Shown: positions 6,887 through 16,396 of the stretch, piece by piece
Layout of the letters: each line of letters opens with the position of its first letter
Position numbering within the stretch: the first letter of the stretch is position 1
From: Hymenobacter lucidus
GTDB taxonomy: Bacteria > Bacteroidota > Bacteroidia > Cytophagales > Hymenobacteraceae
Assembly (NCBI RefSeq): GCF_020447265.1
Contig: NZ_JAJADR010000001.1
Location: 1-64,000, forward strand
Direction of reading: 5' to 3'
Length of the DNA stretch: 64,000 bases
Translations under genes and position numbers: made by a program
The notes under the pieces: generated by a model
What the model was told of the DNA's origin: nothing
Database searches by the model: none
What the model saw: the letters and a program-made list of their open reading frames with translations, nothing else

Positions 6887-7019
6887 CTTGCGGTGGAGCT
6901 GTCGGGGAAAAATCGGTACTTGCCGGCCCGGGCCGCCGCAGGGCCCACAGTTGTTTTTCTTTCCGCCCTAGCTCCTCTGTTTGCGTAGAAGGGCCACCAC
7001 CTACCTGAACGGTTTTCTT

Positions 7020-8426
7020 ATGACAAATTCCCGGCTTGAGCACGACTTTCTTGGCGAACGGGCCATTCCTGAGCACGCGTATTACGGCATCCAGACGCTG
7101 CGGGCTCTGGAAAACTTCGACATCACCGGCATTCCGCTGCGCACCGAGCCGCTGTTTGTGCAGTCGTTGGCCTACGTGAAAAAGGCCGCGGCCCTGGCCA
7201 ATAAGGAGTTGGGCGTGCTCGATGCCAACATTGCCAAGCACATTGCCCTAGCCTGCGACAAAGTAGCCGTCGGCCAGTACGACGACCAGTTTCTGACCGA
7301 CATGATTCAGGGCGGGGCGGGCACGTCGGTGAATATGAACGCCAACGAGGTAATTGCCAACGTGGCCCTCGAGCTGATGGGCCACCAGAAAGGCGAGTAC
7401 CAGTATTGCCACCCCAACAACCACGTCAACTGCTCGCAAAGCACTAATGACGCTTACCCCACGGCTTTCCGCATTGCGCTCAGCAATAAGCTGGTAGGCT
7501 ACGCCCAAACGCTGGGCGAACTGGCCGATGCCTTTGCCGCCAAGGGCGAGGAATTCCGGAACGTACTTAAAATGGGCCGCACCCAGCTCCAGGATGCCGT
7601 GCCGATGAGCATGGGCGACGAGTTCAAGGCCTTTGCCACCAACCTGCGCGAGGAATTGCTCCGCATCGAGGACTCGCGCCGTCTCATCAGTGAAATCAAT
7701 ATGGGCGCTACGGCCATCGGTACCCGCGTGAATGCCCCCAACGGCTACGCCGAGCTAGTTACCGAGCACCTGCGCACCATCACCGGCCTCGACCTGAGCC
7801 TGGCCGGCGACCTGATAGAAGCTACTTACGACACGGGCGCTTACGTGCAGCTCTCCGGGGTACTGAAGCGCACCGCCGTAAAGCTCTCCAAGATCTGCAA
7901 CGATTTGCGGCTGCTCTCGTCGGGGCCACGCACCGGCTTCAACGAAATCAACCTGCCGCCGCTGCAGCCGGGCTCCAGCATCATGCCGGGCAAGGTGAAC
8001 CCTGTAGTGCCCGAGGTGGTAAATCAGACGGCCTTCTACGTTATCGGGGCCGACCTGACGGTAACCATGGCTGCCGAGGCCGGGCAGCTGCAACTCAACG
8101 TGATGGAGCCCGTTATTTCGTTTGCCCTGTTTACCTCTATTTCCTACATGACCCGCGCCTGCCGTACCCTGCGCGAGAAGTGCGTGGTGGGCATTACAGC
8201 CAACGTGCAGCACGCCGAAAACCAGGTGCGCAACAGCATCGGCATCGTGACGCAGCTGAACCCGGTGCTGGGCTACGAAACCAGCGCCGAAATTGCCAAG
8301 GAGGCGCTGCGCACCGGCAAATCGGTGTACGATGTGGCCGTGACGGAGCGCGGGCTGCTCACCCAGGCCAAGTGGGACGAAATCTTCACCTTCGAAAACC
8401 TGATTCGGCCGCACTTCATCCAGTAG
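7020..8426 (+). CDS. aspA: aspartate ammonia-lyase
   Basis: Reversibly deaminates L-aspartate to fumarate and ammonia in the cytoplasm. The ATG at 7020 gives 468 residues, normal for AspA. It begins with RLEHDFLGERAIPEHAYYGI and carries the fumarase/aspartase signature GSSIMPGKVN near residues 318-327, whose flexible loop holds the catalytic serine. NCSQSTNDAYPT and GRTQLQDAVP are further family blocks. Fumarase C, argininosuccinate lyase and aspartase share the signature; the N-terminus and the QLQDAVPMSMGDEF block favour aspartase. Confidence 0.95.
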   Translation: MTNSRLEHDFLGERAIPEHAYYGIQTLRALENFDITGIPLRTEPLFVQSLAYVKKAAALANKELGVLDANIAKHIALACDKVAVGQYDDQFLTDMIQGGAGTSVNMNANEVIANVALELMGHQKGEYQYCHPNNHVNCSQSTNDAYPTAFRIALSNKLVGYAQTLGELADAFAAKGEEFRNVLKMGRTQLQDAVPMSMGDEFKAFATNLREELLRIEDSRRLISEINMGATAIGTRVNAPNGYAELVTEHLRTITGLDLSLAGDLIEATYDTGAYVQLSGVLKRTAVKLSKICNDLRLLSSGPRTGFNEINLPPLQPGSSIMPGKVNPVVPEVVNQTAFYVIGADLTVTMAAEAGQLQLNVMEPVISFALFTSISYMTRACRTLREKCVVGITANVQHAENQVRNSIGIVTQLNPVLGYETSAEIAKEALRTGKSVYDVAVTERGLLTQAKWDEIFTFENLIRPHFIQ

Positions 8427-8530: not shown

Positions 8531-9997
8531 TTACAACAGGTACAAAATGCCGGTGTCCAGGAGGCTAATGGCCGTGCGGGCGGCCTGCGGCAGCGGCAGC
8601 CGCTGGTTCCAGCGGCTAAGCAGGTCGCCAAAACTGGTGGCTTCTGCTGCCATTGCCAGTAGCGGAATAATGTCGGCCTCCTGAATGAACGTTATGGGCT
8701 TCGGCAGATTCGGGTGGCTTACCGCCGTTCTTTCTTCCAGTAGGTCACCGGTAACACAGGTAGCCGTAACATAGCGAAGTCGGGGCGAAGTCCGGATTTG
8801 CCGATTCCACAAGGCCGGCAAAGCTGTCCGTAAATCAATATCTGGCCGTGGAGCAGCGGAAGGCTTTTTGTCGACGACCCCAAAGGCAGCCGCTAGCTTT
8901 GCGCCAAAGGTACTTGCGGTAGCACTGCCAGCCGGCTCAAAGGCGGCTCTCTGCTGCCAGAACGATTGGCGTTGGCCGGGCCAGGCGCTGGCGTAATAGT
9001 CGCGCGTCCAGCGCGTATGGCTGACTGTGGACTCGATGAGCTGGCTCTCGAAGTACTCCTGGGCCAGGCGGCTCCCTGGCTTGCGCAGGGCGGTGTTGAC
9101 AGCCAAAGCGGCCTGCAGGGAAAAGCGCATGGCTTTTTCCACCCCCGAGGAAGAGAGTGGATCCAGCGAAAACGCGCACTCCCCGATGCGGAGGTAGTTC
9201 TTGTTCCAGGGCTTGGCATGCACGTAGTTGTGCACCAGGCAAGCCTCGGTTGGTACCGACGACGCATCTCTACTCACCGTCTGAAACAGCTGACTACGAG
9301 CGGTAAAGGCCCGAAACAGGGCCCCCGGCGACTCGTGCCTGAGTGCCGCCGCATCTGTAAAAAGCATTGTCCTGAACTGCTGCCCCGCCACGGGAGAGCC
9401 CCAGAGCCAGCCCGCTTCGAGGGCTTCCACCAATACTTCCGCCGGCAGTAGCTTCGCCGGCAGGTCAGCCCATAGGGCCGCGCTGGTGGGGGCGGTGGCT
9501 ATGCGGGAGCTGCTGCGGCCACCGCGCCGGCCGCGCGCATCTACTACGAAAGAGGCCGTCAATTCCTGCAAAGCGCCGTTACTGGCAATGCTGATATACC
9601 AAGTCGGCTCCCGGAAAATACTGGCCGTGTACCGCGCCGGCTGAAACAGGCATAGGCCCCGGCTCACCGCCAACGCCAGCAGACCCGCATCGAAAGCCCC
9701 CCGGCTCACCACCACGCCCCCGGCTTTCTGGTAGCTGCTGGCCGTGGTTGATTCCCATATTATGCGGGAAGTGAGGCCGCTGATACCCCCGATGCTTTCC
9801 AGGAGCCCATCGGCCCCCAAGTATTCTAGGATACTGCCAACGCCTGGCGACAATGCTTCCCCGATCTGGCTCCGGGGAAACGCTTCGGCTTCGACCAGGG
9901 CCACCGTATGGCCCATGCCCAGGAGCCGGAGTGCGGCGCAGCTCCCGGCGGGGCCACCGCCAATGATAACGACATCAAATGCAGGAGGGAAACTCAT
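8531..9997 (-). CDS. LodB/halogenase-like FAD-dependent oxidoreductase
   Basis: A 488-residue flavoprotein, last gene of the four-gene operon. The N-terminus holds the FAD dinucleotide-binding motif DVVIIGGGPAGS, and about 20 residues later the PRSQIGEALSPGV block shared by tryptophan halogenases, LodB and QhpG-type monooxygenases. A WLWGSP segment resembles the halogenase WxWxxP motif loosely. In known quinoprotein systems such flavoproteins (LodB, GoxB, QhpG) oxygenate the tryptophan that becomes the quinone, and I infer that role here from the adjacent LodA-like gene. The ATG at 9997 lies 14 nt after the radical SAM stop; a GTG at 10006 is the alternative. No signal peptide, so it is cytoplasmic. 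A true halogenase is less likely given the context. Confidence 0.8.
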   Translation of the reverse strand: MSFPPAFDVVIIGGGPAGSCAALRLLGMGHTVALVEAEAFPRSQIGEALSPGVGSILEYLGADGLLESIGGISGLTSRIIWESTTASSYQKAGGVVVSRGAFDAGLLALAVSRGLCLFQPARYTASIFREPTWYISIASNGALQELTASFVVDARGRRGGRSSSRIATAPTSAALWADLPAKLLPAEVLVEALEAGWLWGSPVAGQQFRTMLFTDAAALRHESPGALFRAFTARSQLFQTVSRDASSVPTEACLVHNYVHAKPWNKNYLRIGECAFSLDPLSSSGVEKAMRFSLQAALAVNTALRKPGSRLAQEYFESQLIESTVSHTRWTRDYYASAWPGQRQSFWQQRAAFEPAGSATASTFGAKLAAAFGVVDKKPSAAPRPDIDLRTALPALWNRQIRTSPRLRYVTATCVTGDLLEERTAVSHPNLPKPITFIQEADIIPLLAMAAEATSFGDLLSRWNQRLPLPQAARTAISLLDTGILYLL

Positions 9998-10011
9998 TAC
10001 CGGCACTTCGC

Positions 10012-11397
10012 CTACTCGAACTGGCCCGGTACCAGCCGGTCGATTCGGGTTTGGGCCTGAATAGTATAGTACAGCCAGCTGCGGATATACTCACAGGCGT
10101 TCCGGCCCTTCGACAGCACTTCGTGGTGGCAGCCGCCGCCGCAGAGGTAGCGGGCCCAGCACTGGTTGCAGGGCTCCTGAGTATGCACATGCCGGGCGGC
10201 CAGCCAGCTGTTCTGCCGCTCGTGGTCTACGCCGGTATTCAGGTTGCCCATTGCGCCGGCCGGCTCATTCACGAAGCGGTGGCAGGCGGCCAGCTCACCA
10301 TCGGCTGATACACCCATGTAGCCGGCCCCGGCCCCGCACGGGTAGGGTCGGTGCGTGCCCTTGGCCACTTCCTTGAGGGCATTCACCATGTTGAGAAACG
10401 GGTACCGCACCCCGGCCAGCGACTTTTGCTCGAAGTTCAGCCCGCATTCAATCATGGCCTGCAACATACTTTCCAGGTCCTCGGCCGACATTTCTCCCGT
10501 GCCGCTGCTCGAATTGAGCAGCGGCGAAAAGCCTACGCTATGGAAGCCGAGGCCGATAAACTCATCCAGCGTCTCGGCCAGATCTACGTTGGTGGGCGTT
10601 ACCGTTACGCGGGCGGCCACCTGCATCTGGCGCTGCCGGGCGAGCAGCGGCTTTATCTTTTCCATAATGACGGCGTAGCTCCCACGCCCGCCTTTCATGG
10701 GCCGTAGCTGGTCGTGCTGCTCCTGCTTACCATCTAGGCTGATGGTAACGGAAAAGCCGTATTCTTCGAAAAAAACGGCGTCGGCTTCGGTGAGCAGCGT
10801 ACCGTTGGTGGTGATGGAGAAGCCCAGCCGGATTTGCTTTTCCCGCGCCTTAGTAGCTGCGTACAGGGTAGCGGCCCGCAGCACCGGCCGGTTGATAAGC
10901 GGCTCACCTCCCAGAAACGTGAGTTGGGCCTTGCCTCCCACTGGGCAGTCCGCCAGCAGCAGATCAATAGATTGCAGCGCGGTTTCGAGGCTCATATTTT
11001 TTACTGCGCCGCCAAAGTCGCCTTGGTTGGCGTAGCAGTAGGAGCAGCCCATATTGCACTTTTGCGCCACGGCCAACGACAGCGCATACAGCGCCGGTGC
11101 CTGCAGCGGCACATCGGTGACGTACTCCGGCGCCGTTATTCCCAGCGTGTTCAGCTCTTGGGTGATGCCGGTTTCGTCGCCGGCCAGCAAATAGGCGCGC
11201 AGGCGCTGCTCCAGCTCCTGGGAAATGTCGTAGAGTCGGCTGCCGTTCACAACGAACAGCTTGGTGGCACTACCGGCCTGAATCAGGTGAATCTGCGCGG
11301 ATAGGGGCCGTGCCTGCGCTGCTATCTGCCGGGATAAGATGGTTGCTATACTTTTGGTATCGGCCTGCTCAATATCGTAACTCATAGTAGTAAGCAT
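10012..11397 (-). CDS. radical SAM/SPASM maturase next to a LodA-like oxidase
   Basis: A 461-residue iron-sulfur enzyme. The radical SAM CxxxCxxC motif (CNMGCSYC) is at residues 114, 118 and 121. The C-terminal SPASM region has cysteines at about 354 and 372 (PCGAG, ACHRF) and then 410, 413, 419, 423 and 435 (CNQCWARYLCGGGCHHE), enough for two auxiliary clusters. The 110 residues before the core could be a peptide-recognition region. This layout is that of peptide-modifying enzymes, and resembles QhpD, which makes thioether crosslinks in quinohaemoprotein amine dehydrogenase. The ATG at 11397 overlaps the lodA-like stop in TGATG, so the two are translationally coupled and the LodA-like protein is the likely substrate. 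A second ATG at 11385 is possible. Confidence 0.85.
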   Translation of the reverse strand: MLTTMSYDIEQADTKSIATILSRQIAAQARPLSAQIHLIQAGSATKLFVVNGSRLYDISQELEQRLRAYLLAGDETGITQELNTLGITAPEYVTDVPLQAPALYALSLAVAQKCNMGCSYCYANQGDFGGAVKNMSLETALQSIDLLLADCPVGGKAQLTFLGGEPLINRPVLRAATLYAATKAREKQIRLGFSITTNGTLLTEADAVFFEEYGFSVTISLDGKQEQHDQLRPMKGGRGSYAVIMEKIKPLLARQRQMQVAARVTVTPTNVDLAETLDEFIGLGFHSVGFSPLLNSSSGTGEMSAEDLESMLQAMIECGLNFEQKSLAGVRYPFLNMVNALKEVAKGTHRPYPCGAGAGYMGVSADGELAACHRFVNEPAGAMGNLNTGVDHERQNSWLAARHVHTQEPCNQCWARYLCGGGCHHEVLSKGRNACEYIRSWLYYTIQAQTRIDRLVPGQFE

Positions 11398-13670
11398 CAA
11401 ACGGCTGAGTCGGGGCTGCCGGAGGCGGTTTCAATGGCGTCCTGGCCCTGAATAATAAAGCTGAGCTCTCCCTGCCAGTTTTTGAACAGGTCGTCGTAAG
11501 ACAGTAGTCGACTGTCAGTGCGGTCGTCGGGAATATACTCGCCGGAGCGCTTCTTCGCCATCCAGTTGTCGCCGGCGCTGAGGCCTCTTTCGTTGGGCTG
11601 CACGTTCACGAAATCGGGGCGGCTGGCGGCCCAGTAGTAGCAGGCACATTCCCGGTAATCGTTTTGCCAGGGGGCGCAAAGCCCCTGGGTAAGCTCGCCC
11701 GGCTTGATAATCTCGTCCGACAGCGCCGCGCTGTCGGGCATGAAGATGTGGTTTACCGTCAGGGTTGCTTGCTGGTACTTTTCCGGATTAGAGAGGTCAT
11801 CCTTGTTGGCTACCACCTCGTGCAGGCTGGGGTTTTTCGTAAAGTGACATACCACTTCCTGGCCCTGTTTCTGCAGCACATCGGCCAGTGAGTTTGACCA
11901 TTCCATGAAGGACACTCCGTTGGGGTTGTCGGCGGTCTGCAGTGGCACATTGTCGCCGCCCGGAAATACCGGCCCGCTGGTGGCTACCGTAGTCAGCTTA
12001 TGGTCGACGGCTACCAGGCGGCAATGCAGCAGATGCTGGTACTCCTCCGTGGTTTCTAGTACGTAGTTGTTGTTCTCAATCAGCACGATACCCTGAAAAA
12101 CGCGGCGCCACAGATTGCGGAAGTCAAACTCCAAGCCCGGAAAGCAGTTGGAAATGGCCGTGCGCGGCAGTACCGAAATAGGGTTGCCCTTGGCCTGGTA
12201 GTGCAGTTGCGCCGTGAGGTTGGCCGCTTTCAGCGGCGCTTCGGCGGCGGGAGCTGCCGTGGTTGCTGCCGGTACTTGGTCCTCAAACATGGCGCTGACG
12301 GCCGCTTTAATAACCGTATTAATCTGCCGGTGCGTGAGTGTGAGGGCCCGACCGTCGGCGCCGCGCATAAGGGCCGGCATCTTCCGGCGCATTCTATCCG
12401 ATAAGTCCCCGATTTGATCGGGCCGGCGGAACACGTCGGAAAACCACGGCGCGGCCCCGGTACTCAGGCCACTGAAAATCCGGTCGTGCAGGGCCAGTAC
12501 CGCCAGATTGTCGACGATGGACTGGGCCATGATGGGCTCATATAGCCGGCCGAAGTCGTTGGTGTCCTGGCGGACCATGGTGCTGGCCGTGTTCCATTTG
12601 CCTTCGAAGGGGTTGCCATTCATCACCGCCGTATTCATGAGCCGCACTGTTTCCAGGGCCCGCCGCACGATTTCTTCGGCCTCATCAATGGTGGCTCCGT
12701 CTACTTCCGGCCCCAGCAGAATCTGCTCCAGCTCATCCGACACAACCCGCACGGGCAGCGTATCGGGCGCAAAAGCCGGTGGCCCCGCGCTAATGTGGGC
12801 CCGGGCCAGCAGCGGGCCTCCCGGGGCTTGCAGGTGAAACTCCACGAACCCGTCACACTCGTCGTCGAGGTAGCCCCAGCTCACGCGGTTGCCATTGCTG
12901 GCGTTGTAGCCCGCGAATATCTGCGCCGGGTTTGTGTAGAGCGGGTTGGGAGTGCCCGTTTCGGAATATCCTAGCCACTTACCTTTCTGCTTGTCGTAGA
13001 GAATCTGCTCCTCCAACTGAATAATCGGGTCCGGCTGCATTGTGCCCGTGTCGTCTTTTTGCCGCTCCAGGGCGGCCCCGTACACGGCCCCCGTAGCGGG
13101 CACAAACCGTAGCCGAATCTGGGGAAACTCCTGGGTGGGTGCAATGAACTGCACAGTGCCCAGGGGCAGGGTTTTGCCGTCAATAAAATTGCCGCACACG
13201 CCGGCCAGTGCCTGTACTTCGTGACTCCGAATATCCCGCAGCTCGGCAATAATCTTGTCCTGCTCATCGCCGGTGCGGCGGAACACCTTGATATTGCCGA
13301 CCGACACCTGCCAGTGAATATCCTGCATCGTGCAACCCGCCTGCTCCAGCATATCTACTGTGAGCGGCACCAACGCGTCGGGGGCCTCGTCGGTGATGGC
13401 GAATACCTCCAGAAAGGGCGCTACCGGCCGGATACGACCGTCTTTTGCCCGCACGGAGGCGGCATCCTTGAAACGGATGGACTTTGGCAAGTACTCCGTT
13501 GCGGTGCCGGTGGCCGTGTCTATCTGTAAGGTGTCGCGGGGAATAATCTGCCGGAAATCAAGCGGCTTGTCGGCGGCTATGGCTAGGTCGTAGGCTTCCA
13601 GAGGGGTTTCGGAAGCGCCCAGCCGGCCAATGGCAATTGGGGGCAGAATGCGTAGGGCTATAATATTCAT
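11397..13670 (-). CDS. LodA/GoxA-like CTQ-type oxidase
   Basis: A 757-residue protein of the LodA family, whose studied members are cysteine tryptophylquinone (CTQ) amino-acid oxidases (lysine 6-oxidase LodA, glycine oxidase GoxA). The N-terminus (ALRILPPIAIGRLG) and PATGAVYGAALERQ are family blocks. The C-terminal third has CFPGLEFDFRNLW (509-521) and LCAPWQNDYRECACYYW (664-680). Compared with the Asp-x-x-x-Cys spacing I recall for LodA (D512/C516), D671 and C675 are the best candidates for the active-site Asp and cofactor Cys, with W732 (KNWQGELSF) the best Trp; this assignment is inference. Extra cysteines at 665 and 677 flank C675. No signal peptide is seen. Substrate unknown. Confidence 0.85.
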   Translation of the reverse strand: MNIIALRILPPIAIGRLGASETPLEAYDLAIAADKPLDFRQIIPRDTLQIDTATGTATEYLPKSIRFKDAASVRAKDGRIRPVAPFLEVFAITDEAPDALVPLTVDMLEQAGCTMQDIHWQVSVGNIKVFRRTGDEQDKIIAELRDIRSHEVQALAGVCGNFIDGKTLPLGTVQFIAPTQEFPQIRLRFVPATGAVYGAALERQKDDTGTMQPDPIIQLEEQILYDKQKGKWLGYSETGTPNPLYTNPAQIFAGYNASNGNRVSWGYLDDECDGFVEFHLQAPGGPLLARAHISAGPPAFAPDTLPVRVVSDELEQILLGPEVDGATIDEAEEIVRRALETVRLMNTAVMNGNPFEGKWNTASTMVRQDTNDFGRLYEPIMAQSIVDNLAVLALHDRIFSGLSTGAAPWFSDVFRRPDQIGDLSDRMRRKMPALMRGADGRALTLTHRQINTVIKAAVSAMFEDQVPAATTAAPAAEAPLKAANLTAQLHYQAKGNPISVLPRTAISNCFPGLEFDFRNLWRRVFQGIVLIENNNYVLETTEEYQHLLHCRLVAVDHKLTTVATSGPVFPGGDNVPLQTADNPNGVSFMEWSNSLADVLQKQGQEVVCHFTKNPSLHEVVANKDDLSNPEKYQQATLTVNHIFMPDSAALSDEIIKPGELTQGLCAPWQNDYRECACYYWAASRPDFVNVQPNERGLSAGDNWMAKKRSGEYIPDDRTDSRLLSYDDLFKNWQGELSFIIQGQDAIETASGSPDSAV

Positions 13671-13686
13671 GGTGGGGTAGGCTAAC

Positions 13687-15198
13687 TTATAGGGGCGATT
13701 TAGTCGTGAGCTGGGTAACCAGCTGCAGCAGCTGCTTATCGGCTTCTAGCAGTGAATTCAGGTACGTTTGATTGGTGGCGCTCAGGGCCATAATGTCGTG
13801 GGCAACCGTGGCGGAGGCTTCCAGCAGGTCTTTGTGCTGCAGCCACTTGTTGAGTTCCCCCATGGGCAGGTCCAGGGTGTAGGGAATCATGAAGGGCGGG
13901 CCGGCCAGCTTGTCGCCAGTATCGGCGAGCGGCAGCCGCACCAGCACGTTGGCAATGCTGCGCAGGTTGTACATTTCCCCGAAAGTGGCGGCAATGATGG
14001 TGCCCCGGGGCGTGCGGGTCCCGTAGATATCGGCGCTGTCGTCTAGCTGGAAACTGTGCATCAAATAGTTCAGCAGCATACGGTAGCGCAGGTTGAACAA
14101 CTCGGCCCAGGCCTTGGCTTCCTCATTCGTAATTGGCTCGCAGGTATAGTCGGTAGGCTGGCCGCTCTTGGTCAGGTTGGTGCTGGCTTCGTCTGGCTGC
14201 CCGGAGCCCACGTAGGGATTGGTGGCCAGGTTGCGCGAGGGTAGCCAGCTGCCGCCGGTGTTGGCCAGCACCTCCCGCATTTCCTTGTAGATGGTCAGGA
14301 ACCGCGCAAAGTGGGAGGGGCCTGATTCGTCGGCGGCCACGTGGGGTGCTTCGCCCTGCTCCGATATAGCCAGCAGCGCGTTGTAGGCATCATCCCGCGA
14401 CAGCAGGGGCATCACCAGCACATCGGGAGTGCCCGGCGGGTTGCCCCCGGTGGTGTTGCCCCGGTTGCCGCCCGTGTAGCCCCGGCCCCACTCGTCAAAT
14501 TTCGCCTGGTAGGGGTAGGTTTTCGACTGAAAAACCTCGTCGCTAATTAAGTCTGGGTCCTGAATAAGCTGCAGAATGACAGTGAATAAGGTCCCAACCC
14601 GGTGCGGATCGGCGGTTACCTGCTGCATCTTTTCCTTAATTTCCCGCGCAATCGGGTCGTCGCTGTCAATCCAGCCTTCCGGCGACTCCGCAAAAACGTA
14701 CTTGGCCAGCGAGTCGAGCGTGAGGGGTTGCAGCGTAAAAGGGAAGGGGTAGAATGGCGTATCCCAGGGGTAATCGTCGCGGGCGAAGTTCAGCGGCGCG
14801 CCAATCAGGCGCAGCACATTCTGACAGGAAATGAAGTGACCCATTTCCTCTTTCGCAATGCCCAGGATAACCTCCTGCCACCGCCGGACCCGGTCGCGGT
14901 ACTGCTCCGGCACCTGCTCGCCGCCGATGCTGTAGGCGGCGTAGAGGTACTGCACCATCAGGCCATGCTCGATTTCAGCGTTGATGTGGAGCAGGAACCC
15001 CAGGTACCCCTTGCCGGTGAGCTCGCGCGGAATGACGGGCTTGGCCGGGGCCGCTGCTTCTGTGGTAGTGGGGGCGGCAAGCAGAGCCTCGGCTCCTGGC
15101 GCCAGGGCTCTGGCAGCGCGTAGCTGAACAGCTTCCCGGTGGGTTTTTTCGGCGATACTGAAGATTGGCTCCAGATAGCGGGCAATATTACCTTGCAT
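13687..15198 (-). CDS. ferritin-like protein (VioB-type N-terminal domain)
   Basis: A 503-residue protein and the first gene of the operon, ending 16 bp before the LodA-like start. Residues 60-135 match the ferritin-like domain found in iminophenylpyruvate dimer synthase (VioB) relatives: GFLLHINAEIEHGLMVQYLY and GIAKEEMGHFISCQNVLRL. Possible diiron ligands are E75 or E77, E118 and H121 (ExxH), with further acidic and His residues in the helix AKAWAELFNLRYRMLLNYLM near residue 370. Bacterial relatives are often near oxidases of secondary metabolism. It may bind iron and react with oxygen or peroxide produced by the oxidase; the role is not known. No signal peptide. Confidence 0.78.
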   Translation of the reverse strand: MQGNIARYLEPIFSIAEKTHREAVQLRAARALAPGAEALLAAPTTTEAAAPAKPVIPRELTGKGYLGFLLHINAEIEHGLMVQYLYAAYSIGGEQVPEQYRDRVRRWQEVILGIAKEEMGHFISCQNVLRLIGAPLNFARDDYPWDTPFYPFPFTLQPLTLDSLAKYVFAESPEGWIDSDDPIAREIKEKMQQVTADPHRVGTLFTVILQLIQDPDLISDEVFQSKTYPYQAKFDEWGRGYTGGNRGNTTGGNPPGTPDVLVMPLLSRDDAYNALLAISEQGEAPHVAADESGPSHFARFLTIYKEMREVLANTGGSWLPSRNLATNPYVGSGQPDEASTNLTKSGQPTDYTCEPITNEEAKAWAELFNLRYRMLLNYLMHSFQLDDSADIYGTRTPRGTIIAATFGEMYNLRSIANVLVRLPLADTGDKLAGPPFMIPYTLDLPMGELNKWLQHKDLLEASATVAHDIMALSATNQTYLNSLLEADKQLLQLVTQLTTKSPL

Positions 15199-15421: not shown

Positions 15422-16396
15422 CTAAGCCTTGCGTGGCAGCTTTTTCAGGAAGGTGGCTATGGCTTGGTTAAACTCCGTGGGGCTTTCGATGAGGGCGTAG
15501 TGCCGACCGGGCACGAGGGCTACCTGCTGGTTGGGGAAGCGAAAGGACTTGTAGTGGTCGGGGCCCACCATGTAGTCGTCCTGGCCCGAAACCACCAGCA
15601 CCGGCATCGTCAGCTTGGCCGTGGCGGGCGTCAGATCCTGTACGTAGCCCTGAATGGCCGGGCCCTGGAACAGCGTAGTGGCAAAGTCGCGGTTGGTGGG
15701 CACGCCCTTCATAGCCCGGCTCAGGCGGGCCGGCGTCGAGTCGTTGGCATACATAAACTTGTTCATCAGGCCCTGCTGGCCCAGCATACCCATCACCATA
15801 CCGAAGCGTTGGGGCAACGGGGCGTTGGGGTCCATGGGAGGGCGGCTGGCGGCGGGCAGCAGCTGGTAGCCGTTGGTAGCGGTGCTTTCCATGGAAGCCG
15901 GCAGGTTCAGAATGCTGTTGACCAGCACCAAGCCCTGCACCCGCTCGGGATATTTGCTGGCGTAGGCCGTGGCAATGATGCCCCCGAAGGAGTGCGACAT
16001 CACCACCCATTTTTCCAGCTGCAACTGCTGGCGCACGTCTTCCAGGTCCTGCACAAGCCGGTCGATGACGTAGTTCTTGTTCGGGTCACTGGCCGAGCGG
16101 CCGCTACCGCGCTGGTCGAGGTAAATCATCTGGAAGTTCTGCTCCAGCGTTTTGCCAGCCAGTGCTTCGATGCCGTAGCTGCCCGAGCCGGGGCCGCCGT
16201 GTACAAACACGCAAGGCAAGCCTTTGCCGGCTACTTTGGTGTAGAGCTTCACACCATCGGTTGTCGTCATGGTAGGCGTACCGTTGGCCAGGGGCGTGGC
16301 TTTGCGCTGGGCCACGGCCAGCTGGGCAGTAGAAAAAGCCAGCAGCAGGCCCAGCAGCCAAGTAGAAAAACGGGGCAGACGAAGAACAGAATCCAT
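15422..16396 (-). CDS. exported alpha/beta hydrolase, proline iminopeptidase-like
   Basis: A 324-residue secreted or periplasmic hydrolase. The signal peptide spans about residues 1-29 (LLGLLLAFSTAQLAVAQ). The HGGPGSGSYGIEAL oxyanion block and DQRGSGRS are typical of the proline iminopeptidase subgroup. The nucleophile serine is in SHSFGG, the acid is probably the Asp in GQDDYMVGPDHY, and the His is in GRHYALIESP. The substrate is uncertain; relatives cleave N-terminal proline or act as esterases. It is transcribed alone, with its own terminator. Confidence 0.88.
   Translation of the reverse strand: MDSVLRLPRFSTWLLGLLLAFSTAQLAVAQRKATPLANGTPTMTTTDGVKLYTKVAGKGLPCVFVHGGPGSGSYGIEALAGKTLEQNFQMIYLDQRGSGRSASDPNKNYVIDRLVQDLEDVRQQLQLEKWVVMSHSFGGIIATAYASKYPERVQGLVLVNSILNLPASMESTATNGYQLLPAASRPPMDPNAPLPQRFGMVMGMLGQQGLMNKFMYANDSTPARLSRAMKGVPTNRDFATTLFQGPAIQGYVQDLTPATAKLTMPVLVVSGQDDYMVGPDHYKSFRFPNQQVALVPGRHYALIESPTEFNQAIATFLKKLPRKA

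Follow-up and report, generated by a model that had tools for sequence, protein, structure and literature searches.

Two routes for building cysteine tryptophylquinone (CTQ) have been described, one in LodA and GoxA with the flavoproteins LodB and GoxB, and one in quinohemoprotein amine dehydrogenase (QHNDH) with the radical S-adenosylmethionine (SAM) enzyme QhpD and the flavoprotein QhpG. In the first route the flavoprotein adds the second oxygen only, whereas QhpG puts both oxygens into the tryptophan and requires the presence of QhpD (PMC7876137). The QHNDH gamma subunit, QhpC, bears the thioethers Cys7-Glu16, Cys27-Asp33 and Cys41-Asp49 and a CTQ made from Cys37 and Trp43 (PMC8172795). In this work we analyzed 64,000 nucleotides of the Hymenobacter lucidus genome (contig NZ_JAJADR010000001.1, positions 1 to 64,000; hereafter the window) and focused on an operon of four genes, encoding a ferritin-like protein (Fer), a LodA-fold protein (LodX), a QhpD-like radical SAM/SPASM enzyme (rSAM) and a QhpG-like flavin monooxygenase (FMO). 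LodX carries residues matching the modified residues of QhpC, and we consider it probable that LodX receives Cys-to-Asp/Glu thioethers from rSAM and its CTQ from FMO. LodX is thus likely to be a new kind of cross-linked quinone oxidase with a thioether-caged CTQ.

The predicted fold of LodX matches LodA and GoxA over residues 4 to 746, and the LodA_C domain was found near its cut-off of 25 bits (24.7 bits in the protein scan, 27.3 bits in the genome scan), in agreement with the LodA-type protein named in the initial annotation of this DNA. Within the LodX family, LodA_C was matched at E ≤ 1 in 60 of 60 proteins and LodA_N in 32 of 60. Nearly all source names among the 120 homologues listed of 1851 found read 'hypothetical' or 'uncharacterized'. 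A genome collection, holding 84,980 species by its description, was scanned with the LodX alignment. The 184 candidate stretches gave 136 relatives, of which the best 80 were kept and all examined as loci (prefix L below). The search that gave these loci used the words WQNDYRE or AISNCFPG, and the chain at each of them was picked by PWQNDYREC, present in 80/80. Together with the 120 listed proteins they made up the 200 rows used for site counts, of which 187 are distinct around the motif and 12 are loci duplicating a listed protein. C665, D671, C675, W680 and D686 occur in all 200 rows, the conservation of D671 and C675 in the loci resulting in part from selection by the search and pick words; C665, C677, W680 and D686 lie outside the search words. 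C677 was found in 199 rows and C509 in 193 of the 199 readable ones, and E514 is invariant in 60 LodX proteins.

QhpC from four genomes reads C-x8-E (ending PGWEVD), then LCQPMEADLYGC-x3-CWWP-x4-D, and its counterparts in LodX are CFPGLEFD and LCAPWQNDYRECACYYWAASRPD, with small variation on both sides. C665-D671 and C677-D686 fall on two of the QhpC thioether pairs and C675-W680 on the CTQ pair, while C509-E514 was matched to the third thioether pair by its PG-x-E-x-D context only. Comparison of 199 LodX C-terminal parts with 120 QhpC sequences by hhalign (score 28.9, E 7e-4 for a single comparison, probability 26%, 33 columns) brought QhpC C27, D33, C37, C41, W43 and D49 exactly onto LodX C665, D671, C675, C677, W680 and D686, and none of 300 column shuffles reached this score (mean 13.8, standard deviation 3.1).

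On the LodA side, D671 aligns with LodA D512 and GoxA D678 and C675 with LodA C516, and W680 was aligned to the WPA tryptophan of LodA-like proteins in the profile comparison only. All 12 LodA-like controls have Ala or Gly at the C665 position, and none of the 12 has a Cys at the C677 position, two residues after the CTQ cysteine. An rSAM gene was not found in LodA-like loci, either by blastp (0/11) or by tblastn (0/12), in stretches of 6 to 18 kb. Within this sample, C665 and C677 therefore go with the rSAM gene.

The rSAM protein matched Radical_SAM at 59.6 bits, and its best NCBIfam model was TIGR03906 (QhpD, 320.7 bits) followed by PapB (270.1 bits), which bears out the QhpD-like enzyme initially proposed for this operon. 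Three rSAMs of LodX operons scored 320.7, 303.3 and 309.1 bits on TIGR03906, and the QhpD of a QhpC-bearing genome 721.2 bits. The CX3CX2C motif and seven further cysteines stand at QhpD positions in all 38 LodX-associated rSAMs aligned with three QhpD sequences. An eleventh cysteine, C319, located ahead of the SPASM cysteines, is invariant in the same 38 proteins and absent from the three QhpD sequences. In the rSAM tree the SPASM outgroup was too remote and attached by long branches, and no claim on a sister relationship of LodX-associated rSAMs and QhpD is based on it. In its own genome the enzyme is the only rSAM match. QhpC (PF08992) was not found in this genome nor in 14 other LodX genomes, in scans in which none of the control genomes gave a match either; the PF08992 model finds QhpC in 4 of 190 alphaproteobacterial genomes. 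As there is no QhpC match in these genomes, LodX is the obvious rSAM target. A small peptide was also considered as substrate, and none was found among the 15 largest recurring flanking families (open reading frames (ORFs) of at least 90 amino acids, within 6 kb).

FMO scored 285.6 bits on the QhpG model NF049967, above the cut-off of 240, and 115.8 and 97.0 bits on the LodB and GoxB models, both with cut-offs of 400. On the QhpG model, four of four LodX-associated FMOs scored 262.6-289.7 bits, the QhpG proteins of QhpC-bearing genomes 444.8 and 456.1 bits, and three LodB-like proteins 147.6, 157.9 and 125.2 bits. As these LodB-like controls also fall under the LodB cut-off (212.7, 226.3 and 210.5 bits), the distinction between QhpG and LodB rests on the relative scores and on a C-terminal extension, which is common to the LodX-associated FMO and QhpG and absent from the two LodB-like controls aligned. 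On these grounds the label of LodB-like flavoprotein, given to FMO at first, was abandoned. With a QhpG-like FMO, both predicted cofactor builders come from the QHNDH side and none from the LodB side.

The operon is real and conserved. The order Fer-LodX-rSAM-FMO on one strand was found in 75 of the 80 loci; among the others, L036, L056 and L063 leave the contig inside the set, L080 starts inside LodX, and L050 is rearranged, with FMO upstream of Fer. The four genes, which the initial annotation had allowed might rarely occur together, are thus ordered in nearly all loci, with four contig ends and one rearrangement as the remainder. The cassette is present in the same order across at least six phyla, with complete order in records of Bacteroidota, Pseudomonadota, Verrucomicrobiota, Acidobacteriota, Planctomycetota and Myxococcota (origin labels as used in the rSAM tree). 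The contig of the sole actinomycete (L036, Kitasatospora) holds only Fer and LodX. Identity of LodX to the window protein drops to 40% among the loci. The distribution of the system is sporadic. In the window's own family, 200 genomes were covered; the set was present in the window's genome alone, and a second genome gave a short LodA-like match. A scan of one order covered 399 genomes, scoring no more than two candidates in each; the centre genome alone had the set, and one other gave a short match of 24.1 bits. Out of 14 well-known control genomes, a single one, that of Caulobacter vibrioides, was matched by LodA_C, and the same one alone by PF12902.

In 20 of the 80 loci (L036, L042, L059, L062, L064-L078 and L081) LodX is encoded by two genes meeting near residue 470. 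In 17 of these 20, the second gene has one or more candidate starts that fall inside the end of the first gene, and the junction coincides with a region of the single-chain model, residues 465-476, with a predicted local distance difference test (pLDDT) value below 50. The second chain, of about 280 residues, bears all the predicted modification sites, and as a separate chain it recalls the free-standing QhpC. Split LodX genes were found in actinobacterial, acidobacterial, myxobacterial and proteobacterial records, among them those of Collimonas humicola (L065) and Pseudoduganella violaceinigra (L067). In L047, LodX is broken at another place.

Fer matched PF12902 at 95.0 bits (gathering score 22.3) and was present in 79 of the 80 loci, the missing one being at a contig start; its invariant Glu and His residues could bind metal. 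On the VioB model TIGR04492, of 1003 positions, it scored 33.5 bits against a cut-off of 1250. Of the VioB-type ferritin-like protein announced by the initial annotation, the ferritin-like part and the common PF12902 domain stood and membership of the VioB family did not. A VioB-like function, with only PF12902 common to both, was rejected and kept as an analogy. VioB/RebD-type enzymes act on the imine and hydrogen peroxide coming from an amino-acid oxidase. PF12902 genes also accompany two LodA operons devoid of rSAM (L143 and L113), so that Fer, whose occurrence tracks the oxidase rather than the kind of maturation, probably serves the oxidase. A ferritin-like gene has already been noted beside fungal lodA/lodB genes (PMC4417212).

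Further PF12902 arrangements were observed. On contig 11 of the window's own genome, near 1.34 Mb (L142: 4699-7758), a second PF12902 gene (479 amino acids) follows a 535-amino-acid ORF, the start of which resembles a Dyp-type peroxidase by eye. In L053 (7758-9989) a Lumazine_bd_2/SnoaL-like domain precedes the ferritin-like protein in one frame. L113 (5798-9876), from the window's genus, combines a PF12902 gene with a compact LodA-like protein of 515 amino acids (CTQ motif KCNTEWWPTQRPD), which gives a weak match to the Pfam QhpC model (E 0.0056), and with a LodB/GoxB-like flavoprotein in two overlapping ORFs; rSAM was not matched in this locus.

Several observations weigh against rSAM-made thioethers and CTQ in LodX. 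rSAM stays below the QhpD equivalog cut-off of 453 and is about 30-34% identical to QhpD. According to the literature consulted, QhpC needs a 28-residue leader to bind QhpD, and LodX has no visible counterpart of it. The match between the LodX and QhpC profiles is short and moderate and comes from a shallow QhpC family, and the Pfam QhpC model touches 2 of 60 LodX proteins, with a best E value of 0.11. LodA-like profiles reach 28.8 against QhpC, exceeding each of the 300 shuffles, although their alignment is out of register; what sets LodX apart is thus the cysteines and not the score taken by itself. Loop 673-679 of LodX has AlphaFold2 pLDDT values below 50, C677 is replaced by Phe in one protein (P0090), and LodA has a cysteine, C507, one place on from the C665 position, where LodA itself has Ala. 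To these is added the partial selection for D671 and C675 mentioned above. For pair 1, the spacing from C to E is 5 in LodX versus 9 in QhpC, C509 is Ala in six loci (L036, L042, L049, L051, L052 and L060), and in 11 of the 12 LodA-like controls a Cys stands no more than 10 residues ahead of PGxE. Since LodA-like proteins that lack an rSAM partner commonly have such a Cys, pair 1 is not linked to rSAM, and of the three thioether cysteines first considered as rSAM markers only C665 and C677 qualify.

In the sequence of events that we propose, rSAM would likely bond C665 to D671 and C677 to D686 via the Asp beta-carbon; the bond from C509 to the gamma-carbon of E514 is the less certain part of this step. 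FMO would then likely put two oxygens on W680, and addition of C675 to the W680 ring, followed by oxidation, would give CTQ. These steps are based on the residue-by-residue correspondence and the gene partnership. By homology with LodA and GoxA, mature LodX would act as an oxidase on a primary amine or an amino acid. D671 would serve as the acid/base of the active site, O2 would accept the electrons, and the products would be an imine or aldehyde, ammonia and H2O2. As the weakest step, Fer would act on the LodX output.

Other explanations differ in the role given to each partner. CTQ might be made by a route like that of LodA and LodB, the flavoprotein completing it after a self-made first hydroxylation while rSAM modifies a small peptide or Fer, for example. 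CTQ is described as forming in this manner in LodA and GoxA via LodB or GoxB, the first hydroxylation being thought to be autocatalytic (PMC7876137), and the branch to which rSAM belongs includes peptide maturases, as reflected by the PapB score. However, LodX has the extra Cys and acids used by QhpD, with C665 and C677 lacking in the controls, the flavoprotein is QhpG-like, and the 15 largest flanking families include no short-peptide family, which makes this route improbable. It also seems quite unlikely to us that rSAM cross-links LodX in the absence of a working CTQ, such that the cross-links only stabilize the protein and FMO does something else. The low predicted confidence of loop 673-679 would fit such a protein, but C675, W680 and D671, found in every row, correspond to the residues that form CTQ or act as the acid in LodA, GoxA and QhpC, and FMO lies above the cut-off of a peptidyl-tryptophan dihydroxylase family.

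The place of Fer, first in the operon, in nearly all loci and with invariant potential metal-binding residues, could also suggest a maturation enzyme, such as a metal oxygenase making the first tryptophan hydroxylation, rather than a protein that works with the mature oxidase. We consider this somewhat unlikely, given that in QHNDH, with QhpD present, QhpG inserts both oxygens (PMC7876137), that the ferritin-like gene goes with the oxidase rather than with one type of maturation, and that PF12902 was not matched in 8 of 11 other LodA-like genomes. Finally, the cross-linked C-terminal part might be released as a ribosomally synthesized and post-translationally modified peptide (RiPP), with LodX as the precursor; QhpD-like enzymes are described as including RiPP maturases, and in the 20 split loci the C-terminal part has a gene of its own. 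Against this, the predicted fold follows LodA and GoxA over nearly the whole chain, the second chain has some 280 residues, and neither a protease nor an exporter is encoded in the operon, in contrast to QHNDH with its QhpE and QhpF (PMC7876137), so that we regard a peptide product as highly improbable. Modification of LodX itself by rSAM and FMO, giving a caged CTQ, is the reading that we retain. The positions of the four genes and of the predicted sites are given in Table 1.

Table 1. Genes of the LodX operon and predicted sites within LodX (window coordinates)
Feature	Position	Strand	Remark
Fer, ferritin-like protein, PF12902	13687..15198	-	503 aa
LodX, LodA-fold protein, predicted CTQ enzyme and predicted rSAM/FMO substrate	11397..13670	-	757 aa
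rSAM, QhpD-like radical SAM/SPASM enzyme	10012..11400	-	462 aa
FMO, QhpG-like flavin monooxygenase	8531..10006	-	491 aa
C509-F-P-G-L-E514, predicted thioether pair 1 (= QhpC Cys7-Glu16)	12129..12146	-	least certain pair
C665-x5-D671, predicted thioether pair 2 (= QhpC Cys27-Asp33)	11658..11678	-	
C675-x4-W680, predicted CTQ pair (= LodA C516, QhpC Cys37-Trp43)	11631..11648	-	
C677-x8-D686, predicted thioether pair 3 (= QhpC Cys41-Asp49)	11613..11642	-	
Linker residues 465-476, near the split point in other species	12243..12278	-	pLDDT < 50

The genes are closely packed. Fer and LodX are spaced by 16 bp, the LodX and rSAM genes overlap at TTGATG, where TGA and ATG have one base in common if ATG is the start, and the gap between rSAM and FMO is 5 bp from a GTG start or 14 bp from an ATG three codons in. 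The ORF coordinates thus agree with the compact operon first described, with its spacings of 16 and 14 bp and its TGATG overlap. A cytoplasmic location of the product, as suggested at that time, appears plausible on a reading of the four N-termini by eye. The operon is flanked by genes for an alpha/beta hydrolase (15422-16396, minus strand) and an aspartate ammonia-lyase (6981-8426, plus strand). Neither kind was among the 15 largest recurring flanking families of the related loci, and nothing links either gene to the four-gene set. The G+C content of the operon (0.606 versus 0.594 for the window) showed nothing unusual, and recent transfer was discarded as a signal from base composition. A scan for promoter-like (4 versus 2.0 expected) and terminator-like sites (8 versus 7.5) was not used. 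An anti-phage role was also rejected: viperin-like radical SAM matches were obtained for rSAM only, and none for the other three proteins.

Two other gene families were seen next to LodX operons. A fifth gene of about 380-520 amino acids (incomplete in L051) adjoins the operon, upstream or downstream, in 11 of the 80 loci from several phyla (L007, L008, L011, L014, L030, L032, L051, L068, L077, L078 and L079). None of the three members tested had a Pfam match above cut-off, and the two flanking genes of the window operon belong to other families. The second, a recurring ORF family found in L043, L046, L048, L050, L055, L058 and L061, in most cases shares a few bases with the end of the four-gene set; its member in L061 resembles, by eye, a regulator of the SAM-domain and cyclase type.

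LodX joins the LodA fold to the modification sites of QHNDH and their likely builders, so that a common origin of the CTQ enzymes becomes testable. Tentatively, LodX might be a living link between the two CTQ classes, a possibility we take seriously without favoring it: an ancestral thioether-caged domain made by QhpD- and QhpG-type enzymes would have given rise to the QHNDH gamma subunit and, after loss of the cage and of rSAM, to LodA and GoxA; a QhpD-type enzyme would act leaderless inside a large oxidase (on a separate chain in the split loci), and Fer would channel imine and peroxide into a product. The LodX system as read here also predicts radical SAM cross-linking inside a large enzyme. 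The natural two-chain LodX offers a modified domain that can be made and weighed alone.

Each element of the system is of a known kind, and the combination of a LodA-type gene with an rSAM partner was not found in the open-access literature searched at the level of titles and abstract starts, most subscription papers lying outside this search. The proposal of an operon built from parts of both the LodA and the QHNDH system holds, with a LodA fold in LodX, a QhpD-like rSAM and a QhpG-like FMO. With QHNDH (qhpABCDEFGR) it shares the Cys/acid/Trp set C-x5-D-x3-C...C...W...D and PG-[LW]-E-x-D, an rSAM with the same ten cluster cysteines and an FMO with the C-terminal extension of QhpG. It differs in that the modified segment lies inside a 757-amino-acid LodA-fold protein, or in a chain of about 280 amino acids in the 20 split loci, and in that the operon has no protease or transporter and no visible leader, but has the additional rSAM C319 and a ferritin-like partner. 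The di-heme alpha subunit QhpA and the propeller beta subunit QhpB are not encoded in the operon; no search of the whole genome was aimed at them. Because there is no QhpC match and the QhpD cut-off is not reached, the system was not classed as QHNDH.

It was not classed as a LodA/LodB system either, because it has no LodB-type flavoprotein. Compared with LodA and GoxA, the Cys and Trp of CTQ are 5 residues apart in LodX versus 65 in LodA (C516 and W581; PMC4417212), LodX has C665 and C677 in addition, the flavoprotein is QhpG-like instead of LodB-like, and an rSAM gene is added. The lodA/lodB-like loci of fungi (PMC4417212) and bacteria (L143 and L113) likewise have a ferritin-like gene beside the LodA-like and flavoprotein genes; in L143 and L113, by contrast, rSAM was not matched, and the CTQ motif lacks C665 in L113 (L104) and in the LodA of the L143 genome (L093). 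VioB/RebD-type proteins have the PF12902 domain in common with Fer, which has 503 amino acids versus the 1003 positions of the VioB model. Taken together, the comparison points to the LodX system as one of LodA-fold, predicted CTQ enzymes with a maturation of the QHNDH type.

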